A stretch of DNA of 64,000 nt from IMG/VR virus record IMGVR_UViG_3300031920_000103, positions 1-64,000 of that record; one strand, given 5' to 3'. The notes beneath the pieces are model-generated. The model worked only from the letters and a program-made list of their open reading frames with translations, was not told the DNA's origin and did not search any database. Position 1 is the stretch's first letter. Each line of letters begins with the position of its first letter. This document shows, piece after piece, positions 5,021-45,225 of this stretch. Source of the stretch: a virus. Position numbers and translations under genes: made by a program.

Positions 5021-5458
5021 TCAGCCCTTTATTCTATCCAGCGTCGCACGTAGTGAAACTGACGCGTCGCTAGCCAGCCGATCGCAAGATACTTCTAGCT
5101 CTGTGATCGCTTGGTCTGCGAGTTGTTCTAGTGCTAGAACTCGTTTGCTTTTATTCTTTGGTTTCGTTAGCGGTAGCGGGTTGGTTAGGTTTGTGGTTTC
5201 CCACGCCATGCAGACGCGCCCCGTAACCTTGCACGGGCGCTCGTGCATTACCGACACGAGCCCCATGCGCTCAAGTTCTGACAAGCGTTTGTGGTAGCTA
5301 GGATTTACCTCCCCGGCGCTTTTCATTCCCTGGTCTAATTCGCTGCGGGTAGCTTCGCCGTTTGTGTACCGCCAATCGTAAACGCGCAGCCGCATTCGAC
5401 TTAGCACCCCGCTTGCACGGATCGCGTGGTAGGTCGCTATGCTGGTCTGTCTAGCCAA
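5021..5458 (-). CDS. Winged-helix DNA-binding protein
   Basis: Start placed at TTG (5458) because a GGAGG ribosome site lies 10 nt upstream, inside the end of the HNH gene. Residues about 20-75 fit a winged helix-turn-helix: TRSELDQGMK, then NPSYHKRLSELERMGLVSVM (recognition helix plus wing). This arrangement is common in phage regulators and replication-associated proteins. The C-terminal half is helical and charged. Role unknown. Confidence 0.65.
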   Translation of the reverse strand: MARQTSIATYHAIRASGVLSRMRLRVYDWRYTNGEATRSELDQGMKSAGEVNPSYHKRLSELERMGLVSVMHERPCKVTGRVCMAWETTNLTNPLPLTKPKNKSKRVLALEQLADQAITELEVSCDRLASDASVSLRATLDRIKG

Positions 5459-6131
5459 GTTGCACGTGCCTCCATGTAGCGCGATTTCGTACGCGCAAGA
5501 TCGTGATATGCGCAACACCGTAGGCCCGCCCCAATGATCGAGCAGATGCGTGCGACGCGAGAATATCGCGCACCTGAGCCTCTGTCAGCTTTGCGCGCCC
5601 GCTGCGTCCTTTGCGCGACATGTCGCGCAGATTTTCTAGTTGTGTGCCTTGGCGCAAGTGCGTGGGGCGAACGCACGCAGGCGTGTCGCATTTGTGCAGC
5701 ACCTTCAAATCGCAGCACAAGTCGCCGTTCGCCAGGTTGTAAGAAAAGCGGTGCGCTAGCATGTACTCATCGGGGCTGGCGTAGAAACACCCGTAGCCTT
5801 TGTTGTTGGTGTGCCCTGTCCATGACCAACACTTGCCGCTCTTGTCGACTTTCGCCCAGAAGCGATCGACAGCGCTGCGTGTTGGTGTTGCCGCAGATTT
5901 TGATAGCTCGAATAGATGCGCGGGGCGCACGCAAAACTTGTTACCGCACGACTGCCGAACCACAAAGCCGGCGCGAGGGTGTGCCCCATGCGCGATGCGC
6001 CAGCTAACGCGATGCGCCATTTGTGACTTACCGTTGACACCAAAGGTGCGCGTTATATTCGCAGTCCATAGCCAGCACTCACCGCGCTTGTCGACCTTTG
6101 CCCAGAAGCGAGCAATTATCAAAGAGTCCAT
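5451..6131 (-). CDS. Free-standing HNH homing endonuclease with duplicated HNH domain
   Basis: Two copies of the same domain in tandem: FWAKVDKRGECWLW...CVRPAHL at residues 9-72 and FWAKVDKSGKCWSW...CVRPTHL at 91-158. The second copy keeps the HKC catalytic/zinc pattern (His146, Cys148, Cys153, His158). The first has Gln60 in place of the catalytic His (QSC), so it is probably a DNA-binding remnant. A C-terminal helix-turn-helix (LTEAQVRDILASHASARSL) follows. HNH enzymes of this type nick or cut DNA to spread their own gene. It is inserted between small genes and the Rad50-like gene. Confidence 0.85.
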   Translation of the reverse strand: MDSLIIARFWAKVDKRGECWLWTANITRTFGVNGKSQMAHRVSWRIAHGAHPRAGFVVRQSCGNKFCVRPAHLFELSKSAATPTRSAVDRFWAKVDKSGKCWSWTGHTNNKGYGCFYASPDEYMLAHRFSYNLANGDLCCDLKVLHKCDTPACVRPTHLRQGTQLENLRDMSRKGRSGRAKLTEAQVRDILASHASARSLGRAYGVAHITILRVRNRATWRHVQLG

Positions 6132-6148
6132 ATATGCTGTGTACTAGA

Positions 6149-11051: not shown

Positions 11052-11179
11052 TTTATGCCTTTTGGCAACGTGCGATCGTGTATCCAGTCAGCCGCAACCG
11101 GGAACCCGAGCAAGTGCAAAATTTCCATCGCCGGATGCCCGACAACGTTGTGCAACGTGTACGCGAATTTCTTTGTCAC
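11048..11179 (-). CDS. Conserved small phage protein (43 aa)
   Basis: A short gene in what would otherwise be a 124-nt gap. GTG overlaps the methyltransferase stop (GTGA), and its own stop overlaps the next GTG. The product begins TKKFAYTLHNVVGHPAMEIL and ends HDRTLPKGIK. To my recollection small proteins with this KFAYTxHNxxGHP...xHDxTxP pattern occur widely in tailed phages; function unknown. Confidence 0.7.
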   Translation of the reverse strand: MTKKFAYTLHNVVGHPAMEILHLLGFPVAADWIHDRTLPKGIK

Positions 11180-13920
11180 TCTTCGCCCTCTTCGCCCTCT
11201 TCGCCCTCTTCGCCCTCTTCGCCCTCTTCCATGTCCTCGATCGCGTGCTGCACTCGCGCCTTTGCGATCGTTGCGAACATTGGATCAAGCTCGATGCCTA
11301 TGCAGGCAAAACCCTCGCGCTGCGCTGCCACCATCGTTGTACCGGATCCCAAAAACGTGTCGAGAACCACGCCGTTCTCGGGTGTCACCAATCGAATCAA
11401 CCAACGCATAAGGCGCACGGGCTTTACAGTTGGATGCGAATTTTTGCTACCACTCAACCGCCCCGCACCCGCTCGCGGGCTGTTGAGTCCGTCGCTGCCC
11501 TCTTTGCGCCCGCCTGTTACTTCGCCGGCGCTCGCGTGTGCAAAGTCGTCTAGGCCGGCTTCCTTTTCCGATCGTGGCGGCTTGGGGCAAACGTAAATGT
11601 TACCCGGAAATCTTCCGAGTTCGCTTGGCGGGTTGATCGTTTCGTTTGCTGCGCCGTACTTGTCGTTATCCGTTCTGCGCGGTGTGCTCAGAGATCGATT
11701 CTGTATCGCCGGCATTGGGTGGACAACGTTGTTGTACTTGCCGTCAGACTTATGCCCCTTGCACGGTTCCGGGAAGTCGGAGCAATGCGAGCCAAGCGGG
11801 CCACCTTGCGGGCCGGGCCAAGACAAGTCGCCCGGCATGATCCTGCAACCGTCGATGTTGAGCCCTCCGGTGCCGTGCGCGATAAAGTTAGCGGCTACCG
11901 TTTTCGCGTCGATCGGTTTGCGTGCGAGGATCGCCGGCTCTTGCGCGGGCTTTAGCGCGGTGCCCCACCCCTCATACTTCGCGGCCTCTTCGCTTGCGGG
12001 CTCCGACGTTACTATTTCCCCCGCCGCCCAACCGCCACCGCCTTGCTTATCCGCGTCAAACGCGACCGCCTGCTTTCTTGTGCCGATCACTTTGCGATCT
12101 AACCCGAGATGCTGATCGATCGCCTTGCCGACGTTCATGCTCTTTGGGAACCCTTGCCAGTATAGCCAACTGATCGTGTCGCGAATTTCAAAACCCGCAT
12201 CCTCGATCGCCACGGCTAGACGGTGCACGGTTCTCGTCGATGCGAACGAAATGATATGGCCACCGGGTTTCAGAACGCGCAGACATTGCCGCCACGTCTC
12301 CGGGTCTGGGAGCGTAGCATCCCACGCATTGCCCATAAACCCGCCCGATGGTAGGCTGACCTCAATGCGTGCTTTTAGCGGCAACCATAAGTTGAACCAA
12401 TGACGCGTGAGTGCCCCGTCTGCTCCGTGAAATACGAAGCCGACCCGGTGCGGCTTCGCCATGGCAGACAAATCACTTGCAGCCGCACGTGCTCGTACAA
12501 GTTGCGCGCCGCCAAGAGAACCAATGCTCTGACCGTCAATTGCGCTACTTGTGGCAAGCAATTCAACCGGGCACCCTCTGCTATCAAATCTAAGCATGAG
12601 GCGGTTTACTGCTCGCGAGAGTGTCACTACAGGGGCAGAACCCTCGGCCTCACTAAACGTGTGGTCGTTGAGCCCTACGTCATGGTCTCCGAGTACGACA
12701 GGAAAGCTGCGGCTACCAAAGGTGCTGGGACTAGACGCCTCCGGGGCAAACACAGGCACACTGAATCCACTAAAGAAAAGCTCAGGCACGCAACCGCCGA
12801 GTACATTGCAGGCACCACTAGAGCCGTCTCTAGCCTCGAAAATAAAGTTGCCAAGGAACTCACCAACAGGGGAATCGATTTCGCTAGGCAAGTCGGAATC
12901 CGTGACCCCGCTACCGGTAGATTTTTTGCGTGCGTTGACTTTCTTCTCGGTGACGGGCGCGTTGTCGAGGTCAACGGAACCTTCTGGCACGCTGACCCAC
13001 GAGTCTACACCGAGCCCACTTACCCCGCGCAGATCCGAACCTGCGAACGGTACGCCATCAAGATCGCGAAGTGCGCGGCTCTCGGAATCGGCGTGATAGA
13101 GCTTTGGGAAATTGACATCGGAGAAAGCCTCGGAGATTTGCTTGATAGCGTTGGCCTGCTTTGAGTACGAACTCATCCCATAGGGCGGATCCGAAACTAG
13201 CGAATCGATCGAGTTGTCGGGAAAAGTTTTAAGCACCTCAACGCAATCGCCGCAATGGATTGTGTGCCCGTCAAACTCGATCGCGTCGCCGTCAGTAAAC
13301 GCCGGCTCTGTGATCTCTGGCTCGTGCGCGTCGTCAGCCTCGTTTGTCGCGTCGTTTAGGTCTGGTAGCTGCGCGGGGTCGCAAGCCTCGCACCCGTCGC
13401 CGTTGCAATGCGTGCACGCGATATCCTCTGCCGGCTCTTCTGCGTCGTCGATCAACGGCATACTCGTAACCGAGTCAGCCAGATCCATTAGATCATCTTC
13501 CGAGAAACCTAGGCCGTCGAGCGAGCCGTACAAATCGATCTGCTCTAAGAGTATTTCGTTTAGCCCGTCAGTGTCCCAACCACCGAGCGCAGAAATACGA
13601 TTGTCTGCGATGATAAACGCTTCCGCCTCGGTTTCGTTTTTAAACGGCATACCGCAAACGATCGGCACGAGCCATTTTCCCTTTTTGGTTTTAAGCCCGT
13701 TCGGTGCGTCCTCGCCGGCTGCGTGCATTCTGCGCAACGTCTCAAGTCGACCGTGCCCGGCTACAAGTTTGCCGGTTCGCTCGTCGCGAGATAGCGGCGC
13801 GCGAAAACCGGAACGCAAGATCGCTTTGCGGATCTCGTCGTAGTCATGCTTTTTTGGGTTGCGGTCAGCGCCCTCGATCTCGTCGAGAGGCACGTAGTCT
13901 ATGCGCATTGAGTCAGCCAT
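11176..13920 (-). CDS. ParB-like/DNA methyltransferase fusion, interrupted by an antisense homing endonuclease gene
   Basis: Start set at ATG 13920 with AGGGG upstream. Residues 1-110 are a ParB/Srx-like domain (LVAGHGRLETLRRM). The amino-methyltransferase part has DPPYG at 244-248, GFMGNAWD at 527-534, LRVLKPGGH, and the SAM-binding motif DTFLGSGTTMVAA near the C-terminus (beta-class order, N6-A or N4-C). Homologues have only a few tens of residues between DPPYG and GFMG. Here about 275 intervene, and residues 253-507 are the antisense of the endonuclease gene at 12400-13164. The frame stays open, so either a long loop is tolerated or the enzyme is inactivated. The C-terminus is a Glu/Gly repeat encoded by a 9-nt tandem repeat. 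Confidence 0.85.
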   Translation of the reverse strand: MADSMRIDYVPLDEIEGADRNPKKHDYDEIRKAILRSGFRAPLSRDERTGKLVAGHGRLETLRRMHAAGEDAPNGLKTKKGKWLVPIVCGMPFKNETEAEAFIIADNRISALGGWDTDGLNEILLEQIDLYGSLDGLGFSEDDLMDLADSVTSMPLIDDAEEPAEDIACTHCNGDGCEACDPAQLPDLNDATNEADDAHEPEITEPAFTDGDAIEFDGHTIHCGDCVEVLKTFPDNSIDSLVSDPPYGMSSYSKQANAIKQISEAFSDVNFPKLYHADSESRALRDLDGVPFAGSDLRGVSGLGVDSWVSVPEGSVDLDNAPVTEKKVNARKKSTGSGVTDSDLPSEIDSPVGEFLGNFIFEARDGSSGACNVLGGCVPELFFSGFSVPVFAPEASSPSTFGSRSFPVVLGDHDVGLNDHTFSEAEGSAPVVTLSRAVNRLMLRFDSRGCPVELLATSSAIDGQSIGSLGGAQLVRARAAASDLSAMAKPHRVGFVFHGADGALTRHWFNLWLPLKARIEVSLPSGGFMGNAWDATLPDPETWRQCLRVLKPGGHIISFASTRTVHRLAVAIEDAGFEIRDTISWLYWQGFPKSMNVGKAIDQHLGLDRKVIGTRKQAVAFDADKQGGGGWAAGEIVTSEPASEEAAKYEGWGTALKPAQEPAILARKPIDAKTVAANFIAHGTGGLNIDGCRIMPGDLSWPGPQGGPLGSHCSDFPEPCKGHKSDGKYNNVVHPMPAIQNRSLSTPRRTDNDKYGAANETINPPSELGRFPGNIYVCPKPPRSEKEAGLDDFAHASAGEVTGGRKEGSDGLNSPRAGAGRLSGSKNSHPTVKPVRLMRWLIRLVTPENGVVLDTFLGSGTTMVAAQREGFACIGIELDPMFATIAKARVQHAIEDMEEGEEGEEGEEGEEGEE
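11180..11229. repeat. 9-nt tandem repeat
   Basis: At least five copies of the unit ttcgccctc lie in tandem at the extreme 3' end of the methyltransferase gene, coding for repeated Glu-Glu-Gly on the minus strand. Because the unit is a multiple of three, copy-number slippage would change tail length without breaking the frame. Confidence 0.85.
12400..13164 (+). CDS. Vsr-fold (EDxHD-type) homing endonuclease, antisense inside the methyltransferase gene
   Basis: A 254-aa protein on the opposite strand to its host gene. Two zinc-finger-like units come first (C5xxC8...C27xxxC31 and C48xxC51...C71xxxC75). The C-terminal nuclease has Glu147 (SSLENKV), Asp180 (FACVDF), then VVEVNGTFWHADPR with Glu190 and His197, the pattern of Vsr mismatch endonucleases and the EDxHD homing family (I-Bth0305I-like). 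Its codons lie exactly in register with those of the methyltransferase, so only TTA, CTA or TCA codons here would stop the other strand. The gene begins right inside the methyltransferase and ends four codons after its DPPYG motif. Confidence 0.85.
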   Translation: MTRECPVCSVKYEADPVRLRHGRQITCSRTCSYKLRAAKRTNALTVNCATCGKQFNRAPSAIKSKHEAVYCSRECHYRGRTLGLTKRVVVEPYVMVSEYDRKAAATKGAGTRRLRGKHRHTESTKEKLRHATAEYIAGTTRAVSSLENKVAKELTNRGIDFARQVGIRDPATGRFFACVDFLLGDGRVVEVNGTFWHADPRVYTEPTYPAQIRTCERYAIKIAKCAALGIGVIELWEIDIGESLGDLLDSVGLL

Positions 13921-13927
13921 AATTCCC

Positions 13928-15043
13928 CTAGTCGTCGCAAAGGTCGTCGGATGATAGATCGGTGCTGTCGCCCTTACCGGCTGCGACCATCGCGGCAGCA
14001 TCCCAGTAATCCCAGTTTGCCTCGTTTAGTTTCGCGCGCGCCTCGTCAACACTTTGGGATCGAGGTGCTACCAATTTCATGTCTTTTGCTAAGTTGAGAA
14101 CTGACCAATCGTTATCCCAACCGGTCTTGTACATGAACCGCAAACGCGCCTTGCGATTTGGTTCTGTCAGCCGCGTCTTAGCTACTGCGATCGTAACGTC
14201 TTTGCCGATATGGTTGCCGGCCTTGTCCTTTACCGCTTTGCCGCCCCATATACCTAGGCGCAAGCTGCAATGAAACTTTAGCGCGGTGCCGCCCGGCGTG
14301 ATCTTGCCGCCGCCGAACCCACCGATCGAGTCCCGCGTTTGGTTCACGATCAAAAGCGTTGCGCGGCTAGCCTCCACCTTCGCGGTCAGGATTCGCATCG
14401 ACTGCGACATTATCTTAGAGCAACCGCCTACGCGCATCTTTTCGCTGACGCCCTCCTCGACTTCCGCTTTCGTTGGAGTCGCCGCGAGGGAATCGAACAC
14501 AACAAGCGCGGGGCCTAGGCTCGGATCGAGCGCATCAAACACACCCTCGATCGTAGCGAGTGCGTGCTCTAGGTGCGTTGGGCGCACTAGGATCAAATTC
14601 TCCGGGTCAACACCTAGCACGCGTGCGCGTTGCTTCATAAACCCGCGCTCGGTTTCGACAAGTGTTGTTGTCGCGCCGTCGCGTTGTGCTTGCCCTAGAA
14701 ATTGCAGCGCTGCGGAACTCTTGCCCGCGCCCTCATCGCTAAAGATCTCGACAATGCGCCCAATCGGCAGACCACCTATGCCGCAAATGTAATGGTCGAT
14801 CACTTCCATTCCGGTTCGTAGCGGCTCGATGCCGTCAGTAAATCCGGCCTCCAAGGTAGAGATCGCGGACACCTTGACCTTGGCTTTTTTCTCTTTGGCT
14901 TTTAGGTGCGCCATCACCGCTTGCGCGGAAGTAAGTTTTTTCTTCGGCTTCTTTTTCGCCGGTTCTTTTTTCGCCGGTTCTTTTTTCGCCGGTGCCTTTT
15001 TGGTCGCCGGTTTTTTCTTTGTCGTCGTCTTTGCTTTTGCCAT
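13928..15043 (-). CDS. RecA/UvsX-like recombinase
   Basis: A 371-aa strand-exchange ATPase. Walker A is DEGAGKSS at 103-110, Walker B LVVFDSLAA near 178, and TLLIVNQTRDSIG is the loop with the conserved Asn-Gln. The N-terminus carries a Lys/Ala/Pro tail of repeated PAKKE units (about residues 15-35), encoded by short direct repeats near 14940-14990 and unusual for RecA; it may help DNA binding. With the gp32-like SSB and the UvsY-like protein upstream it forms a T4-style recombination set. Confidence 0.92.
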   Translation of the reverse strand: MAKAKTTTKKKPATKKAPAKKEPAKKEPAKKKPKKKLTSAQAVMAHLKAKEKKAKVKVSAISTLEAGFTDGIEPLRTGMEVIDHYICGIGGLPIGRIVEIFSDEGAGKSSAALQFLGQAQRDGATTTLVETERGFMKQRARVLGVDPENLILVRPTHLEHALATIEGVFDALDPSLGPALVVFDSLAATPTKAEVEEGVSEKMRVGGCSKIMSQSMRILTAKVEASRATLLIVNQTRDSIGGFGGGKITPGGTALKFHCSLRLGIWGGKAVKDKAGNHIGKDVTIAVAKTRLTEPNRKARLRFMYKTGWDNDWSVLNLAKDMKLVAPRSQSVDEARAKLNEANWDYWDAAAMVAAGKGDSTDLSSDDLCDD

Positions 15044-16645: not shown

Positions 16646-19600
16646 TTAGAGGCTCGCCCATTTCGTGCGGTCGCTAGTCATTGCGCCCCACGATCGGCCA
16701 ACCTCGATGTCTACCACGAGGGGCACGCCGTAAGAAAACCACTGAGTCATGATTCGCTCTGTGCCCTCTATGACCTCGTACAGCGCGTCCTCTTCCACTT
16801 CCTGCAAAGCGCAATCGTGCACCGCCATGATCACGCGGGACGGGATGCAATCCTCTTTTACCCACTTGACCAACTCGACCATCGACATATTGTTGTACTC
16901 GCCGGCCGTGCCTTGCACTGCGGTGTTCCACGACGCGCGCTCTGCCGTGCTGCGCTTTTGGCCGTCCGGATCTGCGAGGTCGAACAACGGGCGGCGTCGG
17001 CATTTCTGCCCGTTCCAATACGTCCACGTGTAGCCTGTTTTGTGTGCTTGCCGTAGTTGGTCTTTGATCCATTTGTCGAGGGCGGAAAAGTTACCGAGGA
17101 TCGCGCGGCGTAGTTTGTTTGCCTCCATCACTTCGATTCCGATCGATGCGGCTAGTGCGTCGTCGCTCATGCCGTACAACAGACCGAAGTTGATCATCTT
17201 GGATGCGCGGCGTAGTTCTGCGCCCTTCTTTGTTTGGTCGCCGTTCTCGTCTAGCAACTCAGCCGGATCAACGCCCCACGCCATAATTGAAACCATTTGC
17301 GCGGTTCGCATATGGAAGTCGTCGCCTGCTTCGTAAATCTCGATCATCTTTTTGTCGCCGGATAGCATCGCGGCAACGCGCAATTCGATCTGTGAGTAAT
17401 CGGCTGAGACGAGCAAGTGGCCGGGCTCCGCAATAAAGCACTCGCGCAAAACTTTGCCCTCGTACTGTTTCTCTGACGGAAGATTTTGTAGGTTGGGATC
17501 TGTACAGTTGTGGTGGAAAATTCCGTGTGCACTGTAACTGTGGTCTGTCGCTACTGTGAGGTCGTAAACTTGGCTTTGCGCCGCTCTGCTACGGATCTCC
17601 TGTACTGCAATGCTTTGCTCTCCGCTACCTGCAAGAAATGGATAGTGTTGTGGCCGGGACGAGTCACCAACGCTAGATTGTCGATGTCGTTGTTCTTCGG
17701 ATCCTCGTCGATATGGTGCACCACCATTTTCTCCGGGAGACTCGACAAGCCCGAAAATTTGGCCATTACTGCCCGATGCACAAATTCCCGCTTGCCGTTG
17801 TGCAGACACGTCAGATACCCGTAACCGTCCTCGCATACCCCTTTCCAGTTGTGGTGCGCTTTGCCGGTCTTGCCCTTCATGGGATTCTTTGTCCCGGTCT
17901 TGGAGTCCGAATAGCGCAACTTGCGTAGCGCCGTCCGTTCTGCGGTCGGCATGTTGTGTTTGACCACGTGCGAAACGTTGTGGTGCGTAGTGCCCAACAG
18001 TTTCGCGATCTGCTCTAGTGTCAGCAACGGGTGCAGTTGTCGATACAGGCACAAAACCTCGTGCTGGTGTATCTGGCAACTTGTCCACTTTTTTGAAACG
18101 CTCAAGTAATTCTCCTACGGTGATCCAATCGCCGCCGGAACGTAGGATCCTATGATCACTTGTGCAAGTCAAAACTTCCCCGTTTGCCAGGCGTATATCG
18201 TAGACTGTGCGCACGCCTTGATCGAGGTTGTGGAGCACCGGTTGCCAACGCTTCTCGTGCGTCCAAACAAGATCGCCTGCTACTACGCCAACGATCGCAA
18301 CGTACCCGCGTTGCGTTAGTATAGGCGTATCACCAACCACACAAGACCACCGACCCGAGCGCGTACCGTCTGGTTTCAGGTTCGGGTGGATCCGACCATC
18401 GGCGCGAATATGCTGTTGCAGCCCAGTCGCGTAAGTACCATCGAGCTTTGCGTACTTTCGGTGATCGATAATGTCTTGCACTACCGGGTGATGCGCCGCA
18501 AGCGTAGTCAGCACGCTCTTGTCTGTGCTCGGCTCGCCCTTCGGTGTCTTCTTTGTGATCGGTAGCTTTAGCTTTACAAACAAAAGCTCTCGGAGTTGTT
18601 TAGCTGATCCGGGGTTGATGTTGTACGGGGCTAGCCTCGCGTCGATCGTTAAGAGTTGCGCGCGGCAATATTGGGACACGTTCTCGATCGCGTCTTTTGA
18701 CACACCCATGCCCCACGCCTCGACCTGATCTAGCGCTTCGGACACGGGTTGTAAAACCGTGTTCCATGCGTACGCAAGCTCAGGGTTGTGCACGTTGATC
18801 TCGTTTAGGTTGTGGTCGATCAACCTGCTAGTCGCAACCGCATCTCGCGCGCAGTACCGAAGCAAAACCGACTTAGGCATAAATGCGTATTTGTACTTTT
18901 TCGGATCTTGCCCTAGACGAATCAACGACTCGATCGCGGGGTCAAGGTACGGCAGCAATTTCGTGCCCTGCTCTGAGATGTCTTTTGCGGTTGGCTTCGC
19001 TTTGCTAAGCGCGCGGATCCTGCGTTGCACTTCGCGCAAACCCGATGCAATGGATTCGCTCGCCTCGTTTTTGTGCCCGCCCATACCGACCAAGTGGCCC
19101 ATGGTGCCTAGCGTTGCGTCGGCCTCCGGGTACGTCAGCTTTCGAGACAAGCGCGTGTCGTGGTCAATGCGGTTTACTTGCACGCCGTACGCGGAACGGA
19201 TCGAGAGCGTGTCGTACTTGACGTACTGACCGCTGACCTTTGTGGTCTTATCTGCGAGCACGTCGAGCAACGGCATTCGGATTGCTGGATCTCGCAATGC
19301 GTCGACGCACCAAACCCAAGGCGAGTCGCTACCGCGCGCAACCGCTGCGAGTGCGATGATCTGAAAGTCGTTATCCCATTGACGCCCGGATGTCTCAACG
19401 TCAAACGTAAACGCACCGGCGTTCCTTAGCTGCTTAGCCGCCACCGTTGCATCTTGCGCCGTCTGCACAAGCCTTGCGCTCTCGTGCCATGGTGGCTTCT
19501 GCGGTGCGTCTTCTTGCAGTATGCGCGTCAGGTCGTTTACAAACTCGGTGCGCAAATACTTGTTGCGGTGAACGAACCAAGGCGAGTTTAAAAAGTGCAC

Positions 19601-20098
19601 GGGTACGCTACTTTGCCCGTCACCAAACAAGTACGTGTACCCTCGTGCGGCGGATGCGATCGGAACCTTGCTGCCGAACAAACTTTCGATCGACGTTCTA
19701 CCTAGCGCTAGAATCTTACCGGGCTTGGCTTCCCTGATCGTGTTGTGCAAGTAGCCTCGACACGCATCGATCTGATCCGACGTTGCTACACGCTTCGGCA
19801 TACAACGAACCGCAAGCGTATAGGCAACCGGGCCGGGGTGTAGTCGTTTGATCAGATCCTTTACCCAAACCCGCTCTCGGCTGACGAATGATTTGTTGCG
19901 CGAGTCCTCTTCTCGTTGTGGTGCGTCGCCAACAACGAGCAACCCACCGGGTGCCCAATTTATCGGCTCGCTACGAACGCACGTCGACCTATTCGTGCCG
20001 CCAAGATCGCAAAGGTTGCAATCGTGGTTGCGTGCTAGGGGCGCAACTGTCTCGACCGCTAAGCGCGGATCGTCAGGGTAGAGCGGTAGTCGTTTCAT
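16646..20098 (-). CDS. Uracil-DNA-glycosylase-like/family A DNA polymerase fusion containing an intein
   Basis: A 1150-codon gene. Residues 1-200 resemble a family 4 uracil-DNA glycosylase (CNLC cysteines, LLVVGDAPQREED, ALGRTSIESLFG), as in the SPO1 polymerase. Residues 215-430 are a 3'-5' exonuclease (FDVETSG, YCARDAVATSRL). The polymerase follows: HPNLKPDGTRSGRWS, the intein (586-864), CTDPNLQNLPS, motif A ADYSQIELR at 899-907, motif B KMINFGLLYG, and motif C VHDCALQEV (the usual HDE is HDC). After splicing the mature protein would be about 871 aa. This is the replicative polymerase. The intein interrupts a conserved primer-template contact motif. Confidence 0.93.
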   Translation of the reverse strand: MKRLPLYPDDPRLAVETVAPLARNHDCNLCDLGGTNRSTCVRSEPINWAPGGLLVVGDAPQREEDSRNKSFVSRERVWVKDLIKRLHPGPVAYTLAVRCMPKRVATSDQIDACRGYLHNTIREAKPGKILALGRTSIESLFGSKVPIASAARGYTYLFGDGQSSVPVHFLNSPWFVHRNKYLRTEFVNDLTRILQEDAPQKPPWHESARLVQTAQDATVAAKQLRNAGAFTFDVETSGRQWDNDFQIIALAAVARGSDSPWVWCVDALRDPAIRMPLLDVLADKTTKVSGQYVKYDTLSIRSAYGVQVNRIDHDTRLSRKLTYPEADATLGTMGHLVGMGGHKNEASESIASGLREVQRRIRALSKAKPTAKDISEQGTKLLPYLDPAIESLIRLGQDPKKYKYAFMPKSVLLRYCARDAVATSRLIDHNLNEINVHNPELAYAWNTVLQPVSEALDQVEAWGMGVSKDAIENVSQYCRAQLLTIDARLAPYNINPGSAKQLRELLFVKLKLPITKKTPKGEPSTDKSVLTTLAAHHPVVQDIIDHRKYAKLDGTYATGLQQHIRADGRIHPNLKPDGTRSGRWSCVVGDTPILTQRGYVAIVGVVAGDLVWTHEKRWQPVLHNLDQGVRTVYDIRLANGEVLTCTSDHRILRSGGDWITVGELLERFKKVDKLPDTPARGFVPVSTTAPVADTRADRETVGHYAPQRFARGQTQHADRRTDGATQVALFGLQDRDKESHEGQDRQSAPQLERGMRGRLRVSDVSAQRQAGICASGSNGQIFGLVESPGENGGAPYRRGSEEQRHRQSSVGDSSRPQHYPFLAGSGEQSIAVQEIRSRAAQSQVYDLTVATDHSYSAHGIFHHNCTDPNLQNLPSEKQYEGKVLRECFIAEPGHLLVSADYSQIELRVAAMLSGDKKMIEIYEAGDDFHMRTAQMVSIMAWGVDPAELLDENGDQTKKGAELRRASKMINFGLLYGMSDDALAASIGIEVMEANKLRRAILGNFSALDKWIKDQLRQAHKTGYTWTYWNGQKCRRRPLFDLADPDGQKRSTAERASWNTAVQGTAGEYNNMSMVELVKWVKEDCIPSRVIMAVHDCALQEVEEDALYEVIEGTERIMTQWFSYGVPLVVDIEVGRSWGAMTSDRTKWASL
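17507..18343 (-). mobile_element. Mini-intein in the polymerase, with an HNH gene nested out of frame
   Basis: Intein of 279 codons. It begins at Cys586 (CVVGDTPILT, block A), has block B at TCTSDHRIL, block F at VYDLTVATDHSYSA, and ends FHHN followed by Cys+1. Splice junctions restore GRWS-CTDPNLQN. Between blocks B and F the intein frame has about 180 residues of Arg/Gln/Gly/Ser-rich sequence with no recognisable domain, because this DNA codes for an HNH endonuclease in the +1 frame (17551-18105). No LAGLIDADG or in-frame HNH is present. Confidence 0.9.
17551..18105 (-). CDS. HNH homing endonuclease nested in the +1 frame of the polymerase intein
   Basis: A 184-aa protein read from TTG 18105 with AGGAG (18112-18116) six bases upstream, all inside the intein frame. 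Residues 29-50 look like a helix-turn-helix (TLEQIAKLLGTTHHNVSHVV), 70-88 like a NUMOD3-type linker, and HHIDEDPKNNDIDNLALVT at 130-148 with His152 and His156 is a full HNH motif. The stop codon falls inside intein block F. It fills almost exactly the place where inteins normally carry their endonuclease domain, but as a separate overlapping gene. Its product should cut intein-less polymerase alleles. Confidence 0.88.
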   Translation of the reverse strand: MSVSKKWTSCQIHQHEVLCLYRQLHPLLTLEQIAKLLGTTHHNVSHVVKHNMPTAERTALRKLRYSDSKTGTKNPMKGKTGKAHHNWKGVCEDGYGYLTCLHNGKREFVHRAVMAKFSGLSSLPEKMVVHHIDEDPKNNDIDNLALVTRPGHNTIHFLQVAESKALQYRRSVAERRKAKFTTSQ

Positions 20099-21938: not shown

Positions 21939-22169
21939 TTAAGCTGAAACATATTTTTCTCGTATACGGACATTCGCCGGCTCGATTTTTCCGGCGAGTA
22001 ATGGGAACCACCACCCGCGATTTTTCGAGTTGCCGCGTAGATGGTGCGCCGGAACCAATCCCGCAACCGCCCAACGTATAATTTCAACGAGTGAACAGTT
22101 GTAGAAATCCGCTGCCTCATCCGCAGCACCCCATTGCTCTCTGCCTCGTCTTGTTTGCATCTGGATCAT
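21939..22169 (-). CDS. Excisionase/MerR-type helix-turn-helix protein (76 aa)
   Basis: ATG overlaps the helicase stop as ATGA. The sequence EAADFYNCSLVEIIRWAVAG followed by LVPAHHLRGNSKNRGWWF fits the helix-turn-helix plus wing of small excisionase-like DNA-binding proteins. It is coupled between helicase and primase, so it could regulate replication genes or the helicase-primase assembly. The role is inferred. Confidence 0.6.
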   Translation of the reverse strand: MIQMQTRRGREQWGAADEAADFYNCSLVEIIRWAVAGLVPAHHLRGNSKNRGWWFPLLAGKIEPANVRIREKYVSA

Positions 22170-24565
22170 GTCCTATCTACGTCCCGCGCAACCATGGCGA
22201 TCATGCCGTGCGCAAAGTCGTGAGGTGCGGGGCCTACTTTAAAGCGGCTTCGCCCGGTTCGGTGTTTCGCAACGTAAAATTCCATCTCGTCGCCCTCATC
22301 GCCGCGCAAGTTCAACGTTATAACTAGATCCGCGATACGCCCTTTGTGCATCGAATCAGACATATCGTTTAAATCGTGGATCTTGCTTTTGTCAGACGAT
22401 CGAGTTGCTTGGCAAGCGGTCCACCCAAAAATTCCGCGCTCGTCGATTATGTTGCGCAAACCCTCGTATACAATTTTTTGTGCGTTGTAGTCGCCGCTCT
22501 CTTTAGGTGCGCCCATTCGATCGGCGTAGTCAACAATCAGAACGTCAACGGGCCGCCCCTCTTGTTGCTCGCAGTTATCTACCCATGCGCGAATGTCGTG
22601 GTGCGTAGTCGTGAAAGGCGAAAACTCTTTTGTTATCCCTAGACCGAGACCGGGCCGGTGCGCGTTGGTCGGGAACTTTCTAGCGCCTAGGTGGTTTAGC
22701 CTTTTTATACATTCGTCCTCGCCATCGCCTGACGTGATCGAGTCGATCGACATGTCGGTCAGATTGGCTTTTATCCGCGCGAGCACTTCGCCCTCTGGAA
22801 TCTCAAGCGTTGCGTATAGTACCGTCAGACCATCGTACAACGACTGTGCGGCTATATGGCTCAGACCCATCGAGTTGTGCGTGATGGTGAAGTCGCCTAG
22901 CAAGAAACGGTGATCGCCGTCTAGGGAGAACCCGTAGTAGTCGCCAGTGCCTACCGGGGCAACAGAGAACCCTGTGCGTAGCGGGTTCTTTGGCTGCCTC
23001 CTTGGCGTTGGTCTTTTCCGTTCGAGCCTAAGCGGTATGTCGTACAGCGTATCACCGACGATGCCAACGCGGTGATACGTGCCGACCTTCGGCCCGCCTT
23101 TAGCGTTGGTGCATTCTTTTTGCACGGGTGCGACGGTGGCCGCGTATCCTAGCGACCTGCACACAAACGCAATGTCGTTCGCTAACCGTAGCGACTTTAT
23201 AGTTATCTCAAAGCCAGATTTATTAGAGGATCCGTCCGAGTCAAGCAGCCCTGCTAGGGTAGCCAAGCGCACTGAGCGCGGTGCAGCGCGGTACGCGTGG
23301 GGTATGAATTTATCGCCAGCCCCGCAGCCCCACAAGCCCAACTCGCGTACAGCCTCGCGCACGGGGTTTTTCTTACCCATGGTACCGGTAAGCTCGTGGG
23401 AGAAAGTAGTTGGGCTTGCTTTGCTCCCGTACGTTTTGATTTTCAGCCCCCACCGCTCGCACTCCTCAACCACTAGCTCGCGAATTTCGTCGTCTTTGGA
23501 AGTTAGCCGCAGATTATCCTTTAGCGAACCGTCGCCCAAAAGCGCGCCAAGGAAATACGGGTCTAGCGGCATAGCGCTGGTGCTTGGTAGCTCCCCGAAC
23601 TCCACCGCGCCGGCGTGGACTAGCTTAGAGTCATTCCTGCGCCTAGTTGACCAAGTAAGCCATTCGCGCAACGGTACATCGACGAGATCGTTGCTGTACC
23701 TCTTGCCCGACAAAACCACGGTTAATACATGATCTAGGTTTACCCTAAAAGTGTCGCCTATGCGCTTTGGTACTATATCGAAAAGCTCCGAACGCCCTAC
23801 GTTTGTCCCCAGCACAACGCGTGGTGTGCTGTCCGGCCCCATAACCGTGTCGCCAACAATAACGCTCTGCACAGCCTTTACGGTGCCGTCATACATCAAC
23901 ACAGGCGTGCCTTTTGCTAAGCATTTACCGTCGCCCGCGCCGCCAACGATCACACCTAGCGCTTTGCGCGCGAGCCCGCCGTTTAGCTGCATGTCTAGAT
24001 CTTCGATACCTGTTGGCAGGCGTTGGATTCTGCGCAACGATCTAATCGCCTCGAAAGATGCGGGGCCTATTCGCGTGCCTTGGCTTGTGTCGACTTCACC
24101 GATGCGCCCGGCGTCGATCATCTCTTGGCCGATTTCGTCGAGGTCGGTGCCCTTGCCGTGTGCGGTGATCGCTTTTCGCACTGCGGCTTGCTGTGCTCTG
24201 CGCTGTAGTATCGGCGCAACCTCCGAGACAACCTCATCCTCTTGCGGTAGCCCCCGATCGTCCGCGTCCTCTAGCAACTCACCGACCGCGCGGATCTCTT
24301 CGAGAGTCATTTTGCCCTCATCGCGAAATCGTCGCATCCGTTGAATCACTAGCAACGGGTCGCTAGGACCGCGACCGAGATCGTTTGCGATTGCTCGCAG
24401 CGCTTCTAGTGCTTTGCGGCACGCCGGGTCGCGCAACAAATCCACGTCAAGAGATTTGCCTATGCGCCCCCAAAACTGCGGGCGTTGGCAACACAGCGCT
24501 ATGATCGTCCGCTCAAAGTCGAGCCCGAAACCATAGCTATCGTTTGATCCGTCTGTTAGCCCCAT
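22166..24565 (-). CDS. dnaB: DnaB-type replicative helicase with an intein
   Basis: A 799-codon gene. The N-terminal domain (residues 1-170) is helical as in DnaB. The RecA-like core has GGAGDGK before the intein and SMGLSHIAAQ after it, so splicing rebuilds the Walker A loop GAGDGKS. After the intein come TLEIPEGE, VDVLIVDYADRM (Walker B), CQATRSSDK and a C-terminal arginine-finger region. It unwinds DNA at the fork with the adjacent primase and polymerase. The mature protein would be about 449 aa. Confidence 0.93.
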   Translation of the reverse strand: MGLTDGSNDSYGFGLDFERTIIALCCQRPQFWGRIGKSLDVDLLRDPACRKALEALRAIANDLGRGPSDPLLVIQRMRRFRDEGKMTLEEIRAVGELLEDADDRGLPQEDEVVSEVAPILQRRAQQAAVRKAITAHGKGTDLDEIGQEMIDAGRIGEVDTSQGTRIGPASFEAIRSLRRIQRLPTGIEDLDMQLNGGLARKALGVIVGGAGDGKCLAKGTPVLMYDGTVKAVQSVIVGDTVMGPDSTPRVVLGTNVGRSELFDIVPKRIGDTFRVNLDHVLTVVLSGKRYSNDLVDVPLREWLTWSTRRRNDSKLVHAGAVEFGELPSTSAMPLDPYFLGALLGDGSLKDNLRLTSKDDEIRELVVEECERWGLKIKTYGSKASPTTFSHELTGTMGKKNPVREAVRELGLWGCGAGDKFIPHAYRAAPRSVRLATLAGLLDSDGSSNKSGFEITIKSLRLANDIAFVCRSLGYAATVAPVQKECTNAKGGPKVGTYHRVGIVGDTLYDIPLRLERKRPTPRRQPKNPLRTGFSVAPVGTGDYYGFSLDGDHRFLLGDFTITHNSMGLSHIAAQSLYDGLTVLYATLEIPEGEVLARIKANLTDMSIDSITSGDGEDECIKRLNHLGARKFPTNAHRPGLGLGITKEFSPFTTTHHDIRAWVDNCEQQEGRPVDVLIVDYADRMGAPKESGDYNAQKIVYEGLRNIIDERGIFGWTACQATRSSDKSKIHDLNDMSDSMHKGRIADLVITLNLRGDEGDEMEFYVAKHRTGRSRFKVGPAPHDFAHGMIAMVARDVDRT
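22874..23923 (-). mobile_element. LAGLIDADG intein in the DnaB Walker A loop
   Basis: 350 codons from Cys215 (CLAKGTPVLMYDG, block A) to Asn564 (FTITHN) followed by Ser+1. Block B is VNLDHVLTV. Two LAGLIDADG motifs, FLGALLGDGS and LAGLLDSDGS, show a full homing endonuclease domain in frame. The P-loop of DnaB is a well-known intein insertion point. This conventional element contrasts with the polymerase intein. Confidence 0.93.
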
Positions 24566-30192: not shown

Positions 30193-30405
30193 CTAACCGC
30201 TTTTTGCGATCGCCTCTTCCGCGAGGCGTTTGCAGCGGTTGCCGCAATGCGTTTTTAGCGTGTCGCGTACTTCGAGATCGCCGCAATGCTGACACCACGT
30301 TTTCGACCCGAAAATAGAGTGTCGCACTAAATGATCTTTGTGCATTTCGCAACGACGCCCACGCTCGTTTACGTGCGCGCACCGGGTGGACTGCTCGCCC
30401 CTCAT
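30193..30405 (-). CDS. Small Cys/His-rich zinc protein (70 aa)
   Basis: ATG overlaps the HNH stop as ATGA. Two clusters, CAHVNERGRRCEMH and CQHCGDLEVRDTLKTHCGNRC, should bind two zinc ions. Not recognised beyond that. Coupled to the homing endonuclease upstream. Confidence 0.6.
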   Translation of the reverse strand: MRGEQSTRCAHVNERGRRCEMHKDHLVRHSIFGSKTWCQHCGDLEVRDTLKTHCGNRCKRLAEEAIAKSG

Positions 30406-30872
30406 GCCCAATGTTCCCCGCGCACGATGCGCCCGATCTGTGTCCGCGAAATACCGTGTCTGCGTGCTAGGTCGATCTGACGAACGGATCCGCGTTTGTA
30501 CTCGCGGCAAATTTTATTCGCTGTGCGCTTTGTTATCCGAGCGTTTCCGTTTTTCTCGCCGCCGTGCTCGCCGCCGTGCTCGCCTGTGTACCCTCTACCC
30601 TTTGCGTGCATGTCGTGATTATTGTCTAGGGTCGTGCCCGCCTTTAGGTGCGATGGTCTAACGCAATGCCGCACGTCGCACTTGTGCATCACGACGCGCC
30701 CTTTTGGTATGCGGCCTTTGTGATTTGCGTATGAGTATCGGTGCGCGTATTGGTGCCCCTCCCATCTGAATTGCGCGTACCCATTTGGCATTAGTCGCCC
30801 GGTCCAAAGCCAGCAACCGCCTTTTGCTTTTTTGTTCACCTTTGCCAAAAAAGCTCTGTACGATTTTCTCAT
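30402..30872 (-). CDS. Free-standing HNH homing endonuclease
   Basis: AFLAKVNKKAKGGCWLWTG, then GRVVMHKCDVRHCVRPSHLKAGT is the HNH_3-type core (HKC...CVRPSHL), and the C-terminus ITKRTANKICREYKRGSVRQ with IDLARRHGIS is a helix-turn-helix. A GEHGGEHGGEKNG linker shows a short internal duplication. The start is uncertain: an ATG 24 codons earlier would overlap the helicase gene. Related in sequence to the endonuclease at 5451-6131 but with a single HNH unit. Confidence 0.85.
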   Translation of the reverse strand: MRKSYRAFLAKVNKKAKGGCWLWTGRLMPNGYAQFRWEGHQYAHRYSYANHKGRIPKGRVVMHKCDVRHCVRPSHLKAGTTLDNNHDMHAKGRGYTGEHGGEHGGEKNGNARITKRTANKICREYKRGSVRQIDLARRHGISRTQIGRIVRGEHWA

Positions 30873-30915
30873 GCCGAATTGTTGATCACCCGCACGAGGC
30901 AGTCTAGTAAAACAC

Positions 30916-32352
30916 TTACGCACTAGGGATCGTTTGAACCTCATGCCCTTCCTTTAAGTAGGCCCTACGACGCCCTTTGGCGTGCCGCTCGGTCCACTTG
31001 TTGCCCTTGTCGAGAATATCCCAAACCTCGAAAGTCTTTTTCTTGCCTTGGTTCGATCGCATACCGCGACCGATTCGTTGCAACGTTGCGATCACGCTCT
31101 TGCCACCACTCGCGACGATCACACTTTCGATCTCGGGAACGTCTAGCCCCTCTTGGAAAACTACGGAGCAAACTAGAACGTCGATGTCGCCGCGCACTAA
31201 GCGCTTGCACGATGCGTCGCGCGTTGCTTGCGGTGTTGTTCCCCAAACGAAATCAGCACTGATACCAGATTTCTCTAGCCGCTCTTTTAGCAGCTTGCCG
31301 TGCTTAACCTCTTTGACGAAAATGAGACAAGGCTTCTCGGCTTTGCGTGCGATATCGACGATCACTTTGTTGCGTTTTGGCGAACGCGCGATCAACTCGC
31401 CGTAGGCACCCTGCCAAGTAGGCTTGGCAGACAAACCCTCGCAGTCGACCATTCGGATCTTAGGTCGAGCCAACACCCCGCGCGCTATCAAAAGATCGGG
31501 GCGAACCCTGTAGATAACCGGTCCCGTCGCCGCAATCGTGTAGATACTGCGCCGGTCTCCACGTGCGAGCGGGGTGCCACTCAACGCGACCCGATAGTAC
31601 GCCTGATCAAGTGCCATTGCCACCGACCAAAAGCTCTTAGCGGGCAGCGTGTGCGCCTCATCAAAGATCACGCCGTCGATGCTCTTTACCAGTCGCGCAA
31701 ATCTTGGTGTGCCTTGGTTTTTTACGAGCGTTTGAAACGTCGCGCACGTTAGCGCGCCGGGGAACGGGTCAGCCGGATCCCACACTCCGGTACCTATGCG
31801 CCCCGCTTCCATGCCGTGATGCCCTACCGTGTCGTCGCCCGGATCACCAAAACTTTTACCGCCCGGATACTTGCCGAGTGCGCGCGCGTTGTACCGCTTT
31901 GCGATGTCGTCGACCAATCCCGCACGGTGCACAACGAATAGCCAGTTGCACGGAAGCGAACGAGTCAGCGCGGGGATGATATCGCCCTTGCCGCCGCCCG
32001 TTGGGATCCAAACGATGCCGCGTGTTCTTTTGCCGATCAGGTCGACCGCCTCTTGTTGATAGTCGCGCAGCCATTCGGTGTTTGCTTTGGGGTCTACCTC
32101 GCAAGGTTTTACGCGTTTGTCGGCTAGCTGTATGTCGATGCCGTCAGTCTTTGCGGCTTCGAGGATCGAGCGCATTAGGCCAGCGGGGAACGTGTCAGAA
32201 AACGAGTCGAGGAAACAAGTTGTCTCGGTCTTAGGTTTTCCGCGCATCCGAAAGCTGACCTCATCAAACGATAAGAACTCCGACAACCACGCGCGCTCGT
32301 CGTCTGTTGCTCTGGCAACGCGTGCGTAGTTGTTAGCGGCTTGGATCCACAC
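30916..32352 (-). CDS. UvsW-like SF2 DNA helicase
   Basis: A 478-aa helicase; GTG start with GGAGG upstream. Motifs: LRDYQQEAVD (Q-like), IPTGGGKGD at 116-124 (Walker A with Gly in place of the usual Thr/Ser after Lys122), FDEAH (motif II), LSGTP (motif III), SVVFQEGLDVPEIE (V) and QRIGRGMR (VI). In T4, UvsW drives branch migration and the switch from origin- to recombination-dependent replication, which fits the recombination genes here. The substituted P-loop residue is unusual. Confidence 0.88.
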   Translation of the reverse strand: MWIQAANNYARVARATDDERAWLSEFLSFDEVSFRMRGKPKTETTCFLDSFSDTFPAGLMRSILEAAKTDGIDIQLADKRVKPCEVDPKANTEWLRDYQQEAVDLIGKRTRGIVWIPTGGGKGDIIPALTRSLPCNWLFVVHRAGLVDDIAKRYNARALGKYPGGKSFGDPGDDTVGHHGMEAGRIGTGVWDPADPFPGALTCATFQTLVKNQGTPRFARLVKSIDGVIFDEAHTLPAKSFWSVAMALDQAYYRVALSGTPLARGDRRSIYTIAATGPVIYRVRPDLLIARGVLARPKIRMVDCEGLSAKPTWQGAYGELIARSPKRNKVIVDIARKAEKPCLIFVKEVKHGKLLKERLEKSGISADFVWGTTPQATRDASCKRLVRGDIDVLVCSVVFQEGLDVPEIESVIVASGGKSVIATLQRIGRGMRSNQGKKKTFEVWDILDKGNKWTERHAKGRRRAYLKEGHEVQTIPSA

Positions 32353-44398: not shown

Positions 44399-44911
44399 CT
44401 AGCGCGCGGTTCCGCGATATGTCTTGCCGTTCACGATGTAGCTGACGGTAGATTTCGCGACTTTGTACTTGGCCATCAGTTCGGCGTACTTCATGCCGCC
44501 CGCCCGATCGGCCAATAGAGCCCTAATTTGCGCATCTGAGAGCTTTTTGTTGCTTTTCGCTGCGTGCCTTGCACGTGCAACTCGTACCGATCGGGGCTGA
44601 TCCATCATGTTGTTGGATTGCGTGCCGATCCTGATATTCAAAAAAGAATTGTCTCGCCGGTTGTCGTTGCTGTGGCGCACAACGACGTTTTCGCCTAGTG
44701 CCCGCCGGCCGTATTTCAAGTATGCGACGAATTGATGCACCTTGACCGGCAACGGGTCGCCTTTGACGTTGATCGAGAACGTGTTGTATTTGCCGCCACC
44801 GGTGCACGCGAGCACGGTACCGGTCGGGGAGATCACGTCGCCGCTTTGCGTCGCGGTGTATCCTCGCAGCTTTGCGATAATGCAGCGCTGCCGTAGCTTT
44901 GAGATCGCCAC
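44399..44911 (-). CDS. Free-standing HNH homing endonuclease (170 aa)
   Basis: GTG start overlapping the upstream TAG. SGDVISPTGTVL, VKVHQFVAYLKYG, VVVRHSNDNRRDNSFLNIRI and GTQSNNMMD follow the HNH layout of phage homing enzymes (His-Asn-Asp-Asn core). A C-terminal helix-turn-helix (KYAELMAKYKVAKSTVSYI) matches other HNH genes in this window. Confidence 0.82.
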   Translation of the reverse strand: MAISKLRQRCIIAKLRGYTATQSGDVISPTGTVLACTGGGKYNTFSINVKGDPLPVKVHQFVAYLKYGRRALGENVVVRHSNDNRRDNSFLNIRIGTQSNNMMDQPRSVRVARARHAAKSNKKLSDAQIRALLADRAGGMKYAELMAKYKVAKSTVSYIVNGKTYRGTAR

Positions 44912-45225
44912 TAGAGCACACCGCGCAGTTCTAACATGCGCACGCACTCACCGCAGATCACAACATCGGGACCCCAAATCGGGTCGCTCTCTTGGCCGTT
45001 CGACAGCGTGCACACCGCCCACCAATCGCCGTCGTAAGCATCGGAGTCGGTGAAGTTTTCCCAAAAAATATGCACGAGCGCGCCCGCCCACGCGTCAGAT
45101 CGGGCTGTGCGGATTCGGTAGCCCGGTATCCCTAGGCGCAACGTCGACTCGATGCGCTTCGCTTTGTCGCCGGGTGCCATGGGCACGACTTGCGGGGCCT
45201 GCCCGCCTTGCCCATATTTGATCAT
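44911..45225 (-). CDS. Hypothetical protein (104 aa)
   Basis: Not recognised. Two tryptophans and a C-terminal CGEC. ATG overlaps the Nudix stop (ATGA). Confidence 0.6.

Follow-up and report, generated by a model that had tools for sequence, protein, structure and literature searches.

Intein endonucleases are, in textbook descriptions, part of the intein itself, and the canonical homing-endonuclease inteins include an in-frame HNH intein reported by Dalgaard in 1997. A review likewise describes the intein endonuclease as being translated in fusion with the intein, with only intron endonucleases made as free proteins (PMC3943268). Examples of the latter are HNH endonucleases from group I introns that interrupt the DNA polymerase genes of phages (phiL7 gp45, I-PfoP3I, I-TslI; PMC3428280), while an HNH hidden out of frame within an in-frame insertion was described in 2025 for phage DNA methylases and named the ShiLan domain (Arsenault, Gosselin and Gogarten; PMC11855218). 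Here we analyse a window of 64,000 nucleotides, positions 1 to 64,000 of the IMG/VR virus record IMGVR_UViG_3300031920_000103 (111,873 bases), in which the gene for DNA polymerase I (polA) is interrupted by a class-1-type intein that appears to carry its homing endonuclease as a separate gene nested in another frame.

Each of these systems resembles the window element in part. Canonical homing-endonuclease inteins (PI-SceI type LAGLIDADG) also have an endonuclease coding region flanked by Hint splicing blocks, at a conserved site of a host protein, but the window nuclease, unlike theirs, is a separate open reading frame (ORF). The polA intron enzymes share with it the HNH_3 type, an individual translation unit and the polA neighbourhood, and phiL7 gp45 and similar intron enzymes are its nearest annotated relatives; they are, however, carried by a self-splicing RNA intron and form a separate clan, whereas the window HNH is carried by a putative protein-splicing intein. 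ShiLan and the window element are both in-frame insertions in phage genes, with an HNH in a different frame and signs of spread between phages. In ShiLan, no ribosome-binding site is detectable and splicing elements of either kind, intein or intron, are lacking, whereas the window insert has a Hint intein and a Shine-Dalgarno (SD) site and lies in a polymerase. The ShiLan work was the only literature we found on an intein combined with an out-of-frame endonuclease, and a 2025 preprint on non-canonical actinobacteriophage inteins (Gosselin) may hold precedent. The first-pass annotation, made from the sequence of the window alone, had called the arrangement one without a standard description. 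This has to be narrowed, as an out-of-frame HNH insertion has been published, albeit in an insertion without a splicing domain. What goes beyond the precedent found is a proposed intein homing element in which the nuclease has a gene of its own, overlapping the intein.

The polymerase intein and its nested gene

The features of the locus, all on the minus strand, are as follows.

16646-20098 (-), family A DNA polymerase gene, interrupted by the intein; UDG-like N-terminus, 3'-5' exonuclease and Pol A domain
17507-18343 (-), intein of 279 residues between GRWS and C-TDPNLQN of the polymerase; intein_Nterm and intein_Cterm matches, alignment of 14 inteins, predicted Hint fold
18080-18343 (-), N-terminal half of the Hint domain, blocks A and B, residues 1-88; AlphaFold predicted local distance difference test (pLDDT) score and conserved residues
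17624-18079 (-), linker (residues 89-240) where an in-frame endonuclease domain would usually lie; disorder predicted, free of stop codons
17507-17623 (-), C-terminal part of the Hint domain, blocks F and G, residues 241-279; pLDDT 78-92
17551-18105 (-), nested ORF for a putative HNH homing endonuclease of 184 residues, in phase +1 relative to the intein; HNH_3, phrog_7545
17653-17784 (-), HNH_3 catalytic domain of the nested ORF; family search of its own genome
18112-18116 (-), Shine-Dalgarno-like AGGAG ahead of the HNH start; read from the sequence
18103-18105 (-), TTG start codon of the HNH ORF; homologous starts (ATG, GTG or TTG) in all 14 PolA inteins
17551-17658 (-), stretch under constraint in both frames, where the tail of the HNH overlaps block F of the intein; in the last two blocks of the overlap, the intein frame is more conserved than the HNH-only null predicts

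The polymerase ORF comprises 1150 codons, corresponding to a precursor of 1150 residues that would shorten to 871 once spliced. Profile searches identified its DNA_pol_A (E 2.7e-88), UDG (E 1.1e-09) and exonuclease (E 3.6e-04) domains. Against plasmids, the whole PolA of the window gave distant matches only. The insert lies inside the conserved GRLSxxxPNLQNIP motif of Pol A, and the joined extein aligns in one piece with insert-free phage polymerases, as an in-frame insertion at a conserved site should. The frame stays open for all 279 codons and contains the residues that characterise class 1 inteins (Cys/Ser1, block B TxxH, the block F Asp, terminal HN and Cys/Ser/Thr+1), here as Cys1, TSDH (the T-x-x-H of block B), VYDLTV in block F, a terminal HHN and Cys+1. 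It matches intein_Nterm above the cut-off (E 3.9e-07). In the 14-intein alignment, Cys1, G13, T61 and H64 are invariant or nearly so, and D261, H278 and N279 are invariant. AlphaFold predicts a Hint fold in two halves, with pLDDT values of about 80-96 in both; in the N-terminal half they are mostly 86-96 up to residue 80 and fall to about 66 by residue 90. In Foldseek the model matches solved intein structures, among them the Npu DnaE intein (E 1e-05). Between the halves, the linker has pLDDT values below 50, and profile searches detected no endonuclease domain in it, so that the insert lacks the in-frame enzyme of a canonical homing-endonuclease intein. Altogether, the insert looks like a splicing-competent intein of class 1 type.

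The nested ORF matches HNH_3 with 47.7 bits against a cut-off of 24.8 (E 1.2e-12), as well as phage HNH families (phrog_7545, E 8e-19); the domain match by itself excludes a chance ORF. The encoded protein has a helix-turn-helix-like N-terminal part followed by the C-terminal HNH, and is confidently predicted to fold on its own (pLDDT 84); its profile found nothing among solved structures. Its residues H110, H130, H131, N139, N143, H152 and H156 are invariant in 14 of 14 inteins. Based on the domain and these catalytic His and Asn residues, we assign it as an HNH homing endonuclease that would cleave site-specifically. Its stop codon (17551-17553) falls within the codons of block F, 44 nucleotides ahead of the intein end.

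These results confirm what the first-pass annotation had observed, with all of its coordinates. Clean splicing blocks had been proposed at these coordinates, and the intein models indeed match the intein frame while HNH_3 matches the +1 frame; the place of the endonuclease, described as featureless, holds no detectable domain and is predicted disordered; and the 184-residue HNH with AGGAG, TTG and HNH motif, ending inside block F, was found as described.

Conservation and selection in the two frames

Searching IMG/VR with the HNH protein returned six relatives at 54-60% identity, all of them out of frame in PolA inteins, and a scan of genome contigs added a seventh (L023, 48% identity) in a very different Pol A. 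A further scan was keyed on splicing blocks, and hence not biased towards HNH; it returned 61 intein loci. The resulting PolA set with an HNH in phase +1 comprises 14 distinct, diverged inteins (the window and 13 others), nearly all of which were also, or solely, found by the splicing-block scan. Throughout the set, Cys1, TxxH, block F, HN and Cys/Ser+1 are conserved, the HNH starts at intein nucleotides 211-241 and its stop lies 44-74 nucleotides before the intein end. None of the 61 loci contains an in-frame HNH, the in-frame endonucleases among them being LAGLIDADG only. The out-of-frame nuclease layout, as predicted across these loci, recurs in dozens of unrelated phages. Two loci appear to have lost their nuclease: a 155-residue version of the PolA intein (L039, 4648-5112) lacks most of the HNH ORF, probably owing to an in-frame deletion, which fits the expectation of a homing cycle, and another intein (L068:4501-5154) retains mere remnants of an out-of-frame nuclease, probably also after an in-frame deletion.

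An SD match of at least 4 nucleotides precedes 13 of the 14 PolA-series starts, compared with 23% of control ATGs. This bears on the possibility that the HNH is made by ribosomal frameshifting out of the polymerase frame, as a polymerase-intein-HNH fusion. Overlapping frames are compatible with such a product, but a stop codon in the HNH frame shortly upstream of the start (9 nucleotides in the window, 9-66 in the relatives) leaves little room for a shift, the SD and start codons are conserved, and inspection by eye revealed no conserved slippery run. We thus consider frameshifting improbable.

To assess selection on the two frames, HNH codons were shuffled synonymously, a control that retains the encoded protein and its codon usage, though not biases between neighbouring codons. 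The intein frame of the window contains no stops against a mean of 5.1 expected (P=0.002), in agreement with the earlier proposal that the linker frame is kept free of stops. Each of the 14 loci likewise has no stops where 2.8-10.8 are expected (P 0.03 or less each, values that must not be multiplied since the loci are related to each other). Within the overlap, identity averages 50% in the HNH frame and 26% in the intein frame, against 23% expected for the latter from HNH conservation alone, and sites at the third HNH codon position change fastest. Along linker residues 89-240, amino acid identity is near this HNH-only null. A clear excess of intein-frame identity over the null is seen at the beginning of block F, in the last ~20-35 codons of the HNH (z about 6), and a smaller one over HNH columns 80-100 (z=4). 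From the frame identities, the third-position pattern and the overlap profile, we conclude that the HNH is the selected product, that the linker is mainly kept open and that, towards the 3' end, constraint acts on both proteins; the predicted structures, with a folded HNH and a disordered linker, agree with this pattern. The claim of about 555 dual-coding nucleotides hence stands as regards two open frames, while clear conservation in both is confined to those last ~20-35 codons.

The same data speak against the HNH being a decaying relic, that is, an in-frame endonuclease domain thrown out of frame by paired indels. Although the HNH sits exactly where other inteins hold their in-frame endonuclease domains, in 14 diverged loci the nuclease lies in one common phase and retains its HNH residues, start codons and SD sites, the HNH frame is under strong selection, and relatives of the HNH outside inteins are separately translated ORFs; together with the lack of an in-frame HNH relative among the 61 loci, this already contradicts the relic explanation, which we regard as very unlikely. 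The first-pass annotation had named relatives with an in-frame endonuclease, or the absence of purifying selection on the HNH frame, as findings that would count against it: no in-frame HNH relative turned up when looked for, and selection is clear from the identities and invariant catalytic residues given above.

A ShiLan-type insertion, unspliced and tolerated as a loop, with the HNH alone mattering, has a published precedent for its out-of-frame HNH in an in-frame insertion (PMC11855218). We nevertheless judge it highly improbable here, as ShiLan has no splicing motifs whereas the splicing residues are conserved in all 14 PolA inteins, and the window insert sits in a core polymerase motif. 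A nested, separately translated HNH within a splicing-competent-looking intein is supported as real and widely conserved.

Apparent mobility and kinship with intron nucleases

Beyond what the first-pass annotation had covered, the comparison gave indications of the origin and the generality of the arrangement. Mean pairwise identity is 29% for the exteins, but 51% for the intein blocks and 50% for the HNH, as expected for an element moving among diverged polymerases; the element thus appears to have moved between them. The nearest annotated HNH relatives, 43% identical, belong to polymerases split by group I introns (Acinetobacter, Xanthomonas, Providencia, N4-like, cyanophage), and these introns sit 4-6 codons (12-18 nucleotides) downstream of the intein site. 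I-PfoP3I, a characterised HNH enzyme from a phage polA intron, nicks 4 nucleotides from its own intron site (PMC3428280). Given this kinship, the adjoining sites and the nicking by I-PfoP3I, we infer that a nuclease already aimed at the polA motif settled in an intein adjacent to its target and that it retained its own frame and start codon there. That the insert is itself a group I intron, open by chance in the polymerase frame and with incidental Hint motifs, is the least likely explanation of all, for although the HNH relatives are intron-borne at an almost identical site, Intron_gpI is detectable in 6 of 7 intron-bearing relatives and not in the window insert (with a threshold as permissive as E 5, Rfam gave no intron RNA hit in 17000-19000), which instead matches N- and C-terminal intein blocks and has a predicted Hint fold.

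Our preferred reading, to which we assign a probability of about 0.86, is that of a composite mobile element. In it, a class-1-type intein of a phage DNA polymerase I has as its homing endonuclease not an intein domain but a separate gene, nested in another frame and derived from the intron lineage beside its target. Ribosomes in the polymerase frame would make the 1150-residue precursor, from which the Hint domain would excise 279 residues to join the 871-residue polymerase; the linker, frame-shifted and disordered, would be tolerated as a loop. Initiation by other ribosomes at the internal AGGAG/TTG would yield the 184-residue HNH protein. The latter would cut or nick polA copies without the intein, close to the codons for GRLSxxxPNLQN, and repair templated by the intein-bearing copy would spread intein and nuclease gene together. 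A nuclease of the polA group I intron lineage would most likely have inserted into the intein, adjacent to its own target, and the odd frame of the HNH would result from its having kept its own translation signals on entry.

Several observations weigh against this reading. The intein_Cterm match is barely over the cut-off (E 0.011, 16.0 bits against 15.6), and the Pfam Intein_splicing match (E 8e-08) lies just under its own. In Foldseek, the HNH gives a weak match to I-HmuI (E 0.13). A C-extein search of IMG/VR revealed no close intein-free relatives of the window polymerase, and the extein alignment was too diverse for patterns; no close intein-free allele was found that would define the empty site at the DNA level. 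Finally, the HNHs of inteins and those of introns fall into two well separated clans (100/100). The two clans are compatible with a single capture, and both a transfer from intron to intein and a common free-standing ancestor fit the tree.

Further nested nucleases and their significance

The splicing-block scan also uncovered a second series, with an HNH_3-type ORF in intein phase +2 (L040, L044-L046, L050, L061, L066, L071, L073, L075-L078, L081). Of the host genes checked, most encode the terminase large subunit (L044, L076, L046), and the intein is often located at the DH/DAxRY motif of the nuclease domain. Terminase inteins of this phase, with the HNH unannotated, are present in GenBank in Tetrasphaera phage TJE1 (L087), Acinetobacter phage Highwayman (L088) and Rhodobacteraceae phage LS06-2018-MD07 (L089), and the layout is likewise unannotated in an uncultured faecal phage (L094). 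Free-standing relatives of the phase +2 HNH directly adjoin terL in phages PAE1, CL2, SN1, FBPa53 and Poludnitsa (unannotated in Poludnitsa). Two further inteins contain DUF559 nucleases on the antisense strand, one in a Mu-F-like head gene (L049:4489-5496, 248 residues, E 3e-13) and one in a gene without a Pfam host-domain match (L059:4501-5790, 294 residues, E 5e-13); no endonuclease was detected in either intein frame.

The window genome itself offers further observations. A DnaB-like helicase (22166-24565, -) carries a conventional in-frame LAGLIDADG intein, a useful contrast within the same genome. A second apparent hidden nuclease, antisense and without splicing motifs, lies at 12400-13164 (+), opposite a ParB/DNA-methylase ORF (11176-14001, -) with a featureless insertion at about residues 290-550; this 254-residue protein has zinc-finger-like Cys pairs and matches the HNH endonuclease family phrog_1271 (E 1.8e-09) and, weakly, endonuclease I. 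Additional HNH_3 genes, apparently free-standing, are found on the minus strand at 5454-6143, 30405-30953 and 44402-44947 of the window and at 93432-93524 of the record.

On balance, we favour the view that inteins harbouring a nuclease gene that is translated independently, whatever its frame or strand, constitute a general class of mobile element in phages that has evolved repeatedly, comprising HNH in phase +1 (PolA), HNH in phase +2 (mostly terminase) and antisense DUF559. Each would have been captured from intron-borne or free-standing homing endonucleases with targets beside the intein site, fusing two selfish elements while leaving their translation separate and uncoupling nuclease expression from the host protein.

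As predicted, such elements break the rule that intein endonucleases are translated as fusions with the intein (PMC3943268). Nested nucleases are probably missed by current annotation, as in the terminase versions of the three named GenBank phages. The reading makes testable predictions, namely two products from one mRNA and a cleavage site shared with polA introns. The elements would also represent natural long overlapping genes under opposed constraints, with one frame selected as an enzyme and the other mainly to stay open. Moreover, they may provide a direct look at how an intein acquires an endonuclease, through an intron or intergenic nuclease lineage lodging beside its own target.
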